A stretch of DNA of 64,000 nt from a bacterium (GTDB taxonomy: Bacteria > Planctomycetota > Planctomycetia > Pirellulales > Pirellulaceae). Shown one piece after another: positions 16,396 through 24,344 of the stretch. Under the pieces are notes generated by a model. The model was not told where the DNA came from. It was given only the letters and a program-made list of their open reading frames with translations, and did no database searches. The first letter of the stretch is position 1; every line of letters begins with the position of its first letter. Location of the stretch: assembly GCA_030430075.1 (NCBI GenBank), contig JAUIGN010000004.1, forward strand, positions 1 through 64,000. The letters run 5' to 3'. The position numbers were made by a program, and so were the translations under genes.

Positions 16396-16429
16396 GGCGA
16401 GCTGGTCGTTGGCCCCGGGTAAGTCTTCG

Positions 16430-16462
16430 CAAGGCCCTCGAGCAGGATGCTCAAGGGCCTTG
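16430..16462 (+). terminator. Hairpin terminator after glnII
   Basis: CAAGGCCCT then GAGCA pairs with TGCTC then AGGGCCTTG around a GGA loop, a 14-bp stem with one mismatch, 35 nt after the glnII stop. It is followed only by GTTTCGT, so it is a strong hairpin with a weak U tract. Confidence 0.65.
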
Positions 16463-16713
16463 TTTCGTATCGGGATGTACGCCGACAAGGGGCGGGCAGC
16501 AGCGCCGCGGGCTCCGGGCTTCCGTCCTCGATCGACTGGTCGACGAATCCGCTGCTTTGCAAGGAACCTCCGGGGTTGGTTGCCCTGCCTTAGCCAGGAC
16601 CCGTGGGCGGCCAGATTGGCCCGTGAAGATTGGCCGGTTGGGAAACCGGAAACGAAGATGAGGCGGTGACAGGTCGTTTCTGGATGGCGATTCGAATTGC
16701 TGGGAAAAAGTTC

Positions 16714-16743
16714 TTGACGCGGTCTTGATGCGTCGATTAAATA
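16714..16743 (+). promoter_or_regulatory. Housekeeping-type promoter for an orphan RNA
   Basis: TTGACG (16714-16719) and TTAAAT/TAAATA (16737-16743) are spaced 17-18 bp apart, a good sigma-70-like match in unusually AT-rich local sequence. No protein gene follows for 980 nt; instead a structured region and an intrinsic terminator follow. Confidence 0.55.
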
Positions 16744-16749
16744 AGAGCA

Positions 16750-17111
16750 GAGCATCTCTTCTGTTCTGCATCTCTTCTCTTTCATGTGGAGGGCATCTAT
16801 GCAAGAACCACCACAGCAGTCTCGATGAGGTTTTGCACTTCGCATCTCCTCAAGTTGTCGTCCAGAAAACCATGAGCTCCTGTTCAACCGTTCTTGGTTG
16901 GCGAGAACTGGCGGCTCACTGCATTTTGGAGCGGACTCGGTCTTGCGATTGGGTCACTTTGCACCAAACAGGTAGCGACTTCGGTGCGTGACAAGCTCGC
17001 AATGAGCCAGGCTCGATCGGCTCGCAGCAATTCGCTTTGAACGCCAGTTCGGGATCTCTGAATCACACCAGCGGCTCTCGCCTCATCGTAGATGGCGAGG
17101 GCCGTTTTTTT
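16750..17111 (+). ncRNA. Candidate structured small RNA of unknown family
   Basis: About 360 nt between a promoter and a strong intrinsic terminator, with no convincing protein frame. The best structure is a nested hairpin at 16943-17002: TTGCGA pairs with TCGCAA, GTCAC with GTGAC, and GCACC with GGTGC, giving 16 bp around a 17-nt loop. A second hairpin (TGTGGAGG with CCACCACA, one mismatch, 16785-16821) would hide a GGAGG followed by ATG at 16799, which opens a 9-codon frame MQEPPQQSR. C/T-rich direct repeats GCATCTCTTCT occur near the 5' end. I looked for landmarks of tmRNA, RNase P RNA, SRP RNA and 6S RNA and found none. The next gene downstream encodes a CsrA fusion, but GGA motifs are few (about four), so a CsrB-like sponge is not well supported. 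Confidence 0.5.
17072..17111 (+). terminator. Strong intrinsic terminator of the orphan RNA
   Basis: CGGCTCTCGCC (17072-17082) pairs perfectly, with one G-U, to GGCGAGGGCCG (17094-17104) around an 11-nt loop, followed by seven T. This is a textbook Rho-independent terminator on the plus strand with no upstream protein gene between it and the glnII hairpin. Confidence 0.85.
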
Positions 17112-17390
17112 GTTGCCAGGCCGCCGGACGGTTCGGGCCGCGCGGTGTGCGCCCGTTTGTCAGCCCGGATCATTCATGGACGGGCAACGATTCAGTGAAA
17201 GACGTTGTTTCGCCAGCGTTGGTAGGGTACTTGTTGATACTTGCGCAGCGAATGGACCAGGACGACCAACGGGAGTCCGCAGATTATTCGGCCGCGCGTT
17301 GCTTGCCGAAGGCTCATTTGCCGCGCAGCCGTCGATAGCTGCAGCCCTGCGCAGATCCGCCGGAACGCGTTCGCGCCTGGTTTGTTCCGG

Positions 17391-17723: not shown

Positions 17724-18440
17724 ATGCTGGTGCTTTCACGCAGAGAATCCGAACGGCTCGTCTTACCCACGCTGGGAATCACGATTGAAGTCGTCGGCGT
17801 GCAGGGCAAAAAGACGCGTCTGGGTATTGATGCGCCCCCCGATGTTCCGATCCTGCGGAGCGAGTTGGCCGACCTGAAGGGGATCGATTTCACGCCGGAC
17901 GGGACCACCGCGAACCGGAAGTGTTCCCGGTTGGCGACTGCAGTCCGGTCCACCGTCGGCTCGACCGCGGAAATCTTGAACCGCCTGCACGCCGGATTGG
18001 AAGGTAACGAGTCGGCGCAGCAGCTCGTCCTGGACGCGTTTCACGAATTGCGCGCCCTCGATCAGACCGTCGGCGAGACACTCGAGGAAATCGACCGGCG
18101 GCCGCCGCACGCGTTGCTCATCGACACGGACGCGAACGAACGGGAGCTGCTGGCCAGTTGTCTGCGGTTGAGCGGATTCGAAGTCGTGATTGCGTCGGAT
18201 GCCGAGGACGCGATTGGCTACCTGTCGATGCATTCGCGGCCGGACGTGGCGCTGCTTGATGCTTCGCGCGTGGATGCCGAAGACGTCGAGCGTCTGCGTT
18301 CCACGGAAGCCTGTCAGGACATCAAGTTGATCGGGCTGGGCGAACGTCAACCGGGCGTCGATCAAGCGTTCGCTCGACCGATCAACGCCGAGCAACTGGT
18401 GGACGCATTGACCCGCGAGTTGACGGTCGTTGCGGTTTGA
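17724..18440 (+). CDS. CsrA domain fused to a receiver-like domain
   Basis: 238 aa. Residues 1-50 are CsrA-like: MLVLSRRESERLVL, ITIEVVGVQGKKTRLGIDAP, DVPILRSEL. The RNA-contact residues Leu4, Arg6 and the C-terminal Arg (Arg45) are kept. CsrA binds GGA motifs in mRNA leaders and blocks or stabilises messages. Residues 51-127 look helical. Residues 128-235 resemble a response-regulator receiver: LLIDTDANERELL (acidic Asp134, Asp136), VALLDASR (phosphoacceptor-position Asp179) and FARPINAEQL. The conserved Lys is Arg218 and the Thr/Ser position is not conserved, so phosphorylation is uncertain. A TGGAGG ribosome site is 7 nt before the ATG and itself contains GGA, so autoregulation is possible. 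No kinase is adjacent. Confidence 0.85.
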   Translation: MLVLSRRESERLVLPTLGITIEVVGVQGKKTRLGIDAPPDVPILRSELADLKGIDFTPDGTTANRKCSRLATAVRSTVGSTAEILNRLHAGLEGNESAQQLVLDAFHELRALDQTVGETLEEIDRRPPHALLIDTDANERELLASCLRLSGFEVVIASDAEDAIGYLSMHSRPDVALLDASRVDAEDVERLRSTEACQDIKLIGLGERQPGVDQAFARPINAEQLVDALTRELTVVAV

Positions 18441-21203: not shown

Positions 21204-22970
21204 CTATTCCGCGTAGACCAGCTTCGCAGGTGGGACGTTGGCCGCGATGCGGCGGAAGGCGTCGAGCAGCTGCGATTCCATCTCGGCGACGGTCGAGCCG
21301 CCCGGAATGTCGATCCAGATCCCGTTGCCGGCAAAGGCGATGGCCTTCATCAGGTCGCGGTCGGCCCCCGCACCGACGCTCATCGTGTGCACGGTGACGC
21401 CGCCGCGAATCGCCTCGACCGCTTCCCAGAACGCATATTTCTTTTTGCTGCTGCTGGTCGCGTAGTCCGGCGTTCCATCATCGTTGTAGTCGGTCCACTC
21501 GGCCCAGTCCCAACCTGCCGGGAAGTTGAACCCGGACGGCCCCTGGTTGGTTTGCCCGTCGGTCATCACGATCATGGTCGGCCGGGCACCGTAGCGCGTG
21601 TGGCCTCGATCTGCCGGGTTCGAAGGATCGCCCAGCAAGAGCTCCCTGGCGTCACGGATTCCGTAGCCCATCCCCGTCCAGGGATCGTAGTGCCCTGCCT
21701 GCTTGTGGCGCTGAATGGTGTCGATGTCGTGATAGTCGCCCGTAATCGGATTCGCTCGGATGTCGACGTAAGCTTCGCCGTCGTCGAGCAGCGTCTCAGT
21801 CTGCGAGTAGCCGCCGTAACTAACCAGTCCCACTTCGTCGCCGAAATCGAGCTCGCCCAGGAAGTCCAAGAACAGCGAGGCGCCTTCCTTCACGGCGTGG
21901 AACGGGTAGTGGGGCGTCCGCCACAGGTCTTCCGAGCGGTCGCTTCCATACCGCGCTTCCTGCAGATAGTTCATCAGGGTGCGGTACCCGTAACGCCGGT
22001 GGTAGCTCCCTTTGAGGTTCTTCACATAGTTGATGTAGCCGTACCAGAGATTGCGGCTGGTCGAAGCACCGGGCCGCCGCTTCGGGCGGCCGTCCCCGTC
22101 ACGGCCCGCCTGGGGGAAGGGATACCTGGGGATCCCGTTCACCGTTTGATCGAGACCCAGATAGCGGAAGATCGTTCCCGTATTGCTGCTGTTGACGTAA
22201 CGGCCCCGGTGCGAGTCCAGCTTGCCGAACCCGCCGGCCGGGAATTTCGCTTGCGACGTGCCGGGCCACGCGGGCCGTTTGGCGACGAGTGCCTCCCACA
22301 TGCCGTCCAGCGAGGCTTCGACGTTCGCCTGCCCCAGCTTTGAAAAGGCGCGGATGGACGAGTCGTCGTTCATGGAGGCGGAGAAATCCAACACCAATAC
22401 GATGTCGCGTGCTTCGACATAGGCGGCGGACGCCGTCTGCACCGGAACCGATTCCATTCCGACGGCCCAACCAAACGACAGCTTGACTTCGCCGTTGGCC
22501 TGGTTCGTGTCCGGATTGTCGCGGCGGGCCGTAACCTTGACCACGTTGTAGGGCGACACGCCCCACTCGATCGGCCAGGCACCCGTTGCGGGATCAAACG
22601 TTCGCTTGCCGAACACCACGTCGACCTGGGGGTCAATCGCAACGCCGTTGGCCGCCGCCACGCGTTCTGCCATGCGACGCGCATTCGCGACAGCGATCGA
22701 GTTGAAGTCGATCGTTGCATCGCCGCCGGTCTCACCCGCCTCCATGACGGCCCCGGAGATCTCCTGGGAGGCTGCCAGGGACGCCGCGTCCACGGCGTTC
22801 TGCATGTTGGTCCGAGCCAACGCGATCAGGCCCGTATCCACGGCGAAGGCGACGAAGGCAAAGACAACCACCAGCAGCAAGGCGGCCAGCACCGTGATGA
22901 TGCCCCGTCTTGTTCGCCGGTCGACGGGCTGCTGCCGGCCGCCACGCCCGTTGTTGGATGGGCCCTTCAT
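21204..22970 (-). CDS. TadG-like protein with von Willebrand factor A domain
   Basis: 588 aa. An N-terminal Arg-rich segment precedes one membrane helix (about residues 24-46), followed by the TadG-like stretch TNMQNAVDAASLAASQ. A VWA domain starts at about 188 with the MIDAS motif DFSAS (Asp195, Ser197, Ser199) and continues to MIVMTDGQTN, with large insertions between. TadG proteins are minor pilus-associated components of Flp/Tad systems and VWA domains bind partners through a metal. The start at MKGPSNN is chosen; the frame extends slightly upstream. It is the last gene of a TadE-TadE-TadG run. Confidence 0.85.
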   Translation of the reverse strand: MKGPSNNGRGGRQQPVDRRTRRGIITVLAALLLVVVFAFVAFAVDTGLIALARTNMQNAVDAASLAASQEISGAVMEAGETGGDATIDFNSIAVANARRMAERVAAANGVAIDPQVDVVFGKRTFDPATGAWPIEWGVSPYNVVKVTARRDNPDTNQANGEVKLSFGWAVGMESVPVQTASAAYVEARDIVLVLDFSASMNDDSSIRAFSKLGQANVEASLDGMWEALVAKRPAWPGTSQAKFPAGGFGKLDSHRGRYVNSSNTGTIFRYLGLDQTVNGIPRYPFPQAGRDGDGRPKRRPGASTSRNLWYGYINYVKNLKGSYHRRYGYRTLMNYLQEARYGSDRSEDLWRTPHYPFHAVKEGASLFLDFLGELDFGDEVGLVSYGGYSQTETLLDDGEAYVDIRANPITGDYHDIDTIQRHKQAGHYDPWTGMGYGIRDARELLLGDPSNPADRGHTRYGARPTMIVMTDGQTNQGPSGFNFPAGWDWAEWTDYNDDGTPDYATSSSKKKYAFWEAVEAIRGGVTVHTMSVGAGADRDLMKAIAFAGNGIWIDIPGGSTVAEMESQLLDAFRRIAANVPPAKLVYAE

Positions 22971-23028
22971 GGTCTCGTTCCTTTGCGCCCTGAACCGTCG
23001 CTGTCCCCCGCACGTCACCCCCCGCACG

Positions 23029-23508
23029 TCACCTGGCGGCAACGGCCCTGGCGTTGCGGAAGATCACTTTGGCGCTCATGATCATGTGCTTACGTGAAGA
23101 ATTGCTCAGTCCGCTGACGGCGGAGTACGGCATCTCGATACGCAACTCGAACAGCCGCAGGTCGTTGTCGGGATCGTCGAGGTCAAATACGGAGACATGG
23201 TCTGCGGCGTCGACAAAATAAACACGCGCCTGCTCGCCTTTCAGTCCGTTCGAGGTAAGGAAATTCTTGATGTCTGCTTCGATCTTCGCGTTGGTCGATT
23301 CGTTTCGGTAGAGCATTCCCTTGCGGTCCATGGAGGCAAGCCGCGCGCCTTCACGGGCCGCCACCGCCAGTTCGTTCTGTGCGTCAAACAGCGTGCTGAC
23401 TTCCGTGACGCCCATCAGCACGACGAGCAGGAGCGGCGCGACAATCGCGAATTCGACCGAAGCGACACCCTGAGGTCGTTGGCAACTGCGGCGTCTTGTT
23501 CTGGCCAT
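23029..23508 (-). CDS. TadE-like pilus assembly protein (second)
   Basis: 159 aa. A short basic N-terminus RTRRRSCQRPQG is followed by VASVEFAIVAPLLLVVLMG, the TadE hallmark (Gly, then VEFA, then a hydrophobic helix) that resembles a pilin signal cleaved by a TadV-type peptidase. The region after the helix (STLFDAQNELAVAAREGARLAS) is also characteristic. TadE/F proteins are pseudopilins of Flp pili. GAGGT lies 7 nt before the ATG. It lies between another TadE gene and the TadG/VWA gene with short gaps of 39 and 58 nt. Confidence 0.88.
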   Translation of the reverse strand: MARTRRRSCQRPQGVASVEFAIVAPLLLVVLMGVTEVSTLFDAQNELAVAAREGARLASMDRKGMLYRNESTNAKIEADIKNFLTSNGLKGEQARVYFVDAADHVSVFDLDDPDNDLRLFELRIEMPYSAVSGLSNSSRKHMIMSAKVIFRNARAVAAR

Positions 23509-24030: not shown

Positions 24031-24344
24031 GATTCGACCCTCAGGCTATCCAGAACATCCGGGCCCGCGGAAACGACCCGCAGAGAGATTCCCCATCGGT
24101 TGGATAACGGAGTTCGTGTTGCTCTTCAGCGGCCTGGCAATCTCGCGTGAACGACGAGACCCATGGCTTTGCGACCCGATCTCGCGACCGGTTTGCGTTT
24201 TTCGAGGAACGTTGCCTGAGTTCCGCGGAAAAGGAAAAGACTTGATGTGCATTAAAACAGATAGGTCACAACTGGCCGATTGTCAAATCGGCACCGGTTC
24301 CGGAAATGCCCGGCTCCATACTCCCTCAACGCGGGTTCCCACAC

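Follow-up and report, generated by a model that had tools for sequence, protein, structure and literature searches.

A candidate family of small-RNA genes in Pirellulales with a conserved diprolyl mini-ORF and a hairpin at its stop codon

The DNA analyzed here, referred to as the window, is a single stretch of 64,000 nt. Within it, glnII (Pfam Gln-synt) lies upstream, and a gene encoding a CsrA domain fused to a response-regulator receiver domain (weak match; 17725-18440) lies downstream, of a region for which a sequence-only reading had proposed an orphan structured RNA with its own promoter and terminator and no gene; the domains of the flanking genes bore out this location. An inverted repeat, AGGCCCTCGAGC...GCTCAAGGGCCT, at 16424-16465 after glnII is likely to be the terminator of glnII and to divide this gene from that of the RNA. 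The promoter was found as the sequence-only reading had described it, with the −35 element at 16714-16719, a 17-nt spacer and the −10 element at 16737-16742 (Table 1). A simple promoter scan did not flag this site, terminator-like sites were as frequent in shuffled DNA as in the window and, as bare patterns, the promoter, hairpin and terminator are no better than chance. The RNA strand from 16747 to 17112 had a better folding energy than dinucleotide shuffles (z = −3.8). The promoter, fold and terminator of the window copy were judged to be real because they are conserved.

Table 1. Features of the RNA locus (window coordinates)
Feature	Position	Strand	Conservation or other support
Promoter TTGACG-N17-TTAAAT	16714..16742	+	Present in window; ortholog has TTGACA-N17-TTAAAT at the corresponding site
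5′ hairpin UGCAU-CUCUUC / GGAGGG-AUGCA over the Shine-Dalgarno sequence and start codon	16767..16803	+	Predicted in both same-genus sequences
Shine-Dalgarno sequence GGAGGG, 5 nt ahead of AUG	16788..16793	+	Conserved family-wide
Mini-ORF MQEPPQQSR-stop	16799..16828	+	Pro-Pro kept while third codon positions change
Stop-codon hairpin UGAGG...CCUCA	16826..16852	+	Family-wide covariation
Long-range helix GAACUGGCG / CGCCAGUUC around the 3′ structured domain	16903..17050	+	Window and ortholog differ by compensatory changes
40-nt hairpin without differences between the two species of the genus	16953..16992	+	Exact match in G001
Intrinsic terminator, an 11-bp stem (one G-U) followed by 7 T	17072..17111	+	Compensatory change in ortholog stem

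An ortholog with 76% identity was detected in one of 98 relatives, a species of the same genus (G001), and it also lies between glnII and csrA. This ortholog retains the −35 element (TTGAC[G/A]), the 17-nt spacer, the −10 element, the terminator and the fold, and its folding energy relative to shuffles was even further from chance (z = −5.6). Alignment of the two sequences with RNAalifold identified 11 base pairs in which both sides had changed; several of these belong to the long-range helix, which in this form was seen only in the genus. Comparison with relatives, as proposed in the sequence-only reading, yielded both a conserved ortholog and compensatory changes. The consensus energy relative to column-shuffled alignments had a z score of −7.7 for these two sequences and −9.8 for nine members of the long class described below, while the 3′ part without the terminator gave −4.1 for the window and ortholog. 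The nested hairpin on which the sequence-only reading had focused (16943-17002; TTGCGA/TCGCAA, GTCAC/GTGAC and GCACC/GGTGC) is present and its inner 5+5 bp are invariant in the ortholog, but the outer 6 bp are lost there. Similarly, the terminator, described as a perfect 11-bp stem with seven T, has the stem (CGGCTCTCGCC / GGCGAGGGCCG) and the T run, ending at 17111, but includes one G-U pair. The 40-nt hairpin was not found, allowing up to three mismatches, in the 239 other genomes of the bacterial family. A 32-nt match in another genome (G083), considered as a second ortholog, was attributed to chance, there being no further similarity at that locus. An 88-amino-acid ORF at 16725-16991 was rejected as a gene, as gaps in the ortholog break the frame.

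Searches with the Rfam 15 covariance models detected nothing above the gathering threshold at this locus or, among 19 further members, at their copies of the RNA; with relaxed thresholds included, a chance match to a nematode snoRNA (16 bits) was all that was obtained. The known RNA landmarks are, as had been stated, absent from the locus. The tmRNA model RF00023 matched another contig of the same genome (G000:C97:27583-27942) and hence the locus is not a missing tmRNA. It resembles tmRNA in being a structured RNA of about 360 nt with a short reading frame but differs in lacking a tRNA-like domain and in having a mini-ORF with its own Shine-Dalgarno sequence and AUG.

This mini-ORF, GGAGGGCATCT-ATG CAA GAA CCA CCA CAG CAG TCT CGA TGA, lies inside the region that had been thought to contain no gene. 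With the hairpin at its stop codon it forms the most widely conserved part of the RNA, upstream of the hairpin previously highlighted. The ortholog encodes MQEPPQRSR-stop, with five synonymous changes including a switch of the stop codon from TGA to TAA. The 5′ hairpin has no varying pairs between the two same-genus sequences and so gave no covariation signal.

A first covariance model was built from a 97-nt part comprising the mini-ORF and the hairpin module. The matches it produced in other genera were weak yet extended over the full length, and all had a Shine-Dalgarno sequence, AUG, Pro-Pro codons and a hairpin, with one exception: of the eleven rows, one (L014) did not have this anatomy and was left out. 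A strict exact pattern with 20.5 specified bases was scanned over 84,980 species genomes and produced 17 matches, 16 in records labelled as planctomycetes and the other being the G001 ortholog, whose record is labelled only "bacterium." A second covariance model, built from 18 sequences, had matches with E values up to 0.1 in 87 of 240 genomes of the bacterial family and, at the level of the order, in 103 of 396; the weak end of both sets includes chance matches. With a third model and laxer filters, matches at the same E value limit were obtained in 23 of 40 relatives, some with two copies. Because not all candidates are scored in any one search, the counts are lower bounds for sensitivity and, at the weak end, upper bounds for specificity, and covariance-model searches are biased towards sequences resembling the training set. 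Overall, 74 distinct loci from across the Pirellulales were analyzed and 16 more were confirmed, so that the window RNA is one member of a spread family rather than an orphan. The full module was also present in two loci from another group of the class (L116 and L117). Weak matches outside the class (22 to 24 bits) and matches in two genomes within it (L120 and L121) looked like chance and were rejected; phage records searched for the RNA locus contained no match.

Multiple copies were observed in several genomes. The window's own genome has a second module (L096 4213-4302, minus strand; G000:C48:213212-213301; MQDPPDWMPRGEARV...), which has no stop at codon 10. In L126, L134 and L137, two family mini-ORFs were arranged in tandem about 104 to 190 nt apart, and two modules were 817 nt apart in G403 (L107).

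The stretch is apparently one copy of an undescribed RNA gene family in planctomycetes. The family was not found in the literature on planctomycete small RNAs and small ORFs that was covered, which mostly did not extend to subscription papers. One planctomycete candidate RNA, the Rhodopirellula-1 motif of Weinberg et al. (2010), has no Rfam accession in the published table but is listed as probably cis-regulatory and as present also in Proteobacteria (PMC2864571); it was set apart by this description only and may be identical. More than half of the sampled relatives carry this gene family of an RNA and micro-peptide, which adds to a phylum with little small-RNA work.

The family mini-ORFs follow the pattern M-x-[D/E]-P-P-[G/D]-x-x-x-stop, with 7 to 13 codons and most often 9. 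Among the 74 distinct loci, the information per position was lowest at the third base in each of codons 2 to 6. Codon 4 was CCA, CCG or CCC, codon 5 was CCG, CCA, CCT or CCC, and codon 6 was mostly GGC, GGT or GGA or else GAC or GAT; leucine at codon 2 was spelled in four ways (CTA, CTT, TTA and TTG), and in some members GTG replaced the ATG start. Aspartate or glutamate preceded the two prolines in 73 of 90 loci and glycine or aspartate followed them in 59, while a stop was present at codon 10 in 56 and absent from about a third of members; these 90 loci combine the 74 with 16 added through a pattern requiring CC.CC, a filter that did not apply to the 74. A minority of members had PPK, PPY or PPC, or PS or TP in place of PP. 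Given that the start and the DPP and PPG/PPD residues are maintained despite variation at third positions, the mini-ORF is likely to be translated. Conservation of the Shine-Dalgarno sequence, AUG and CC-rich codons as RNA sequence only, in a purely non-coding structured RNA, would fit with the location of the window's Shine-Dalgarno sequence and AUG inside a predicted hairpin and with retention of the 5′ arm of the stop-codon hairpin where the stop codon is lost. This alternative was considered highly improbable in view of the third-position variation, the synonymous leucine and proline codons, the interchange of ATG and GTG and the frequency of the codon 10 stop. The peptide itself is unlikely to be the point of the gene because conservation is limited to the first six codons and the peptide, mostly of nine residues, has a variable end.

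The 5′ arm of the stop-codon hairpin contains the stop codon of the mini-ORF and begins 27 nt past the A of AUG in the window. Across the family this arm is positioned at nt 27/28, even in members without the stop codon. The TGA-to-TAA change between window and ortholog is compensated by a change from CCTCA to CCTTA. In the family alignment, 90.9% of cells were paired as compared to 44 to 56% when the arms were slid by 1 to 3 columns, 100 cells had changes on both sides versus 30 in shuffles, and all eight pairs had such changes; this alignment was fitted to the structure, and an independent MAFFT alignment of 18 sequences agreed with it. A switch involving pairing of the Shine-Dalgarno sequence to the 3′ arm was rejected, as pairing within a member (−10.2 kcal/mol) was no better than that between random members (−10.4 kcal/mol).

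Upstream of the mini-ORF, promoter scores reached the cut-off in 32% of family members versus 3.8% of control positions. Most modules are followed, 0.1 to 0.5 kb on, by terminator-like stems and T runs, located around +105 to +220 in members of a short class and +270 to +490 in those of a long class, which includes the window. The terminator stem recurs as GGCCCTCG...CGAGGGCC in other long-class members, and nine members of this class have the terminator and parts of the 3′ domain in common. A structured RNA with its own promoter and terminator, the core of the sequence-only reading, is thus supported by the ortholog, the folding z scores and these family-wide signals. The mini-ORF, hairpin and terminator are also leader-like, and the csrA fusion is the next gene in both species of the genus, as would be expected for a transcription-attenuation leader. 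The next gene varies among members, however, and no csrA gene lay close to members elsewhere in the contexts that were read; according to a rough longest-ORF call, the following gene is antisense in 44 of 72 loci, and the family is therefore not a cis leader. In the window, moreover, the csrA start is 613 nt past the terminator, and a leader of the csrA-response regulator gene was regarded as very improbable. The locus may well be an independent small-RNA gene, whose transcript would extend from about 16749 to 17111.

A ribosome on mRNA extends some 15 nt beyond the first nucleotide of the codon in its P site. When the P site contains the Pro5 codon (nt 12-14), the predicted ribosome edge lies at nt 27, which is also the hairpin's base. 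An arrest device is preferred over a peptide gene chiefly because the two coincide, even in members that have lost the stop codon. The best explanation, to which we assign a probability of roughly 0.5 from comparative sequence evidence, is a free-standing small RNA with a mini-ORF for diprolyl ribosome arrest or drop-off. A ribosome would translate the short, Shine-Dalgarno-led mini-ORF and would pause or drop off once Pro5 had reached the P site and the Gly or Asp codon at position 6 the A site. This would be expected because DPP, PPG and PPD strongly arrest ribosomes in an EF-P-dependent manner and because the nascent peptide is so short. The leading edge of the paused ribosome would then touch the hairpin base at nt 27/28. 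The least certain steps are that EF-P activity, the prolyl-tRNA supply or Mg2+ would decide passage and melting of the hairpin and that the two resulting RNA states would differ in stability or in binding of a target in trans. Published work has identified APP, DPP, PPD, PPG and PPN as arrest motifs, with relief by EF-P for DPP, PPD and PPG (PMC6544042), has shown that PPD and PPG cause pauses and that an aspartate upstream of PPX stimulates pausing (PMC4140641), and has reported that drop-off, which EF-P alleviates, readily occurs when a nascent chain is very short and contains consecutive prolines (PMC8934632). Diprolyl arrest contexts (DPP, PPG and PPD in XPPX) are found in the family; the EPPQ of the window, with Gln at codon 6, fits less well than the family DPPG, and this copy may be a weaker arrest site than the consensus. 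The genome contains two EF-P-family matches (G000:C40:207692-207850 and G000:C4:354607-354768), one of which is on the window's contig.

Alternatively, the translated mini-ORF may merely protect or stabilize a structured regulatory RNA, either dual-function or ribosome-guarded, with no meaningful Pro-Pro stall and with the function residing in the variable 3′ domain. The invariance of the 40-nt hairpin within the genus and the presence of long, structured 3′ domains in one class and short ones in another are compatible with this explanation, which nevertheless is rather unlikely given that the DPP[G/D] codons are the most conserved part across the family and the 3′ domain the least, and that Hfq was not found in the window's genome. 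Less probable again is an MgtL-like sensor in which an early acidic and proline-containing chain intrinsically destabilizes the ribosome and aborts in response to Mg2+ or an ABC-F protein such as EttA. The D/E then P-P within the first five residues does resemble the EPDP of MgtL, on which ribosomes have been reported to stall when Pro3 is in the P site and to drop off (PMC11282234), and short peptidyl-tRNAs are prone to drop-off (PMC8934632), but the family mini-ORFs mostly have just one acidic residue, their preference for PPG/PPD suggests slow peptide-bond formation on proline, and there is no Mg2+ transporter or other constant gene downstream.

The family shares features with several known systems. 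Arrest leader peptides and uORFs (MgtL, mgtQ and pyrL-type attenuators) also have a very short, Shine-Dalgarno-led ORF with early acidic and proline residues, overlapping a hairpin and followed by RNA hairpins and an intrinsic terminator, but these leaders act in cis whereas this family has no constant co-directional downstream gene. An independent promoter and terminator, a structured RNA and a small ORF, here probably translated to judge by its codon-level conservation, are features of dual-function small RNAs, and the family may be such an RNA in the broad sense, differing in that only six codons are conserved and the peptide end is variable. More tentatively, the family could be a class of trans-acting RNAs in which an arrested Asp-Pro-Pro-Gly ribosome would serve, through the hairpin at its leading edge, as a sensor of EF-P activity or translation state with no cis gene. 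If the arrest reading is true, diprolyl stalling would be put to use by an RNA that stands alone and not by a leader, and what senses EF-P activity here would be directly testable with a 9-codon construct.

The location of the window copy, a free-standing RNA near csrA, recalls the CsrB/RsmY-type RNAs, but no repeated conserved GGA loops were apparent by inspection; in the alignment of the two species the GGA of the Shine-Dalgarno sequence was, again by inspection, the only GGA in common. Elsewhere in the window, a c-di-GMP-I riboswitch at 24125-24207 on the minus strand (57.6 bits) was the only Rfam hit, and a von Willebrand/Tad-like ORF (21204-23042) is located on the same strand as this riboswitch.
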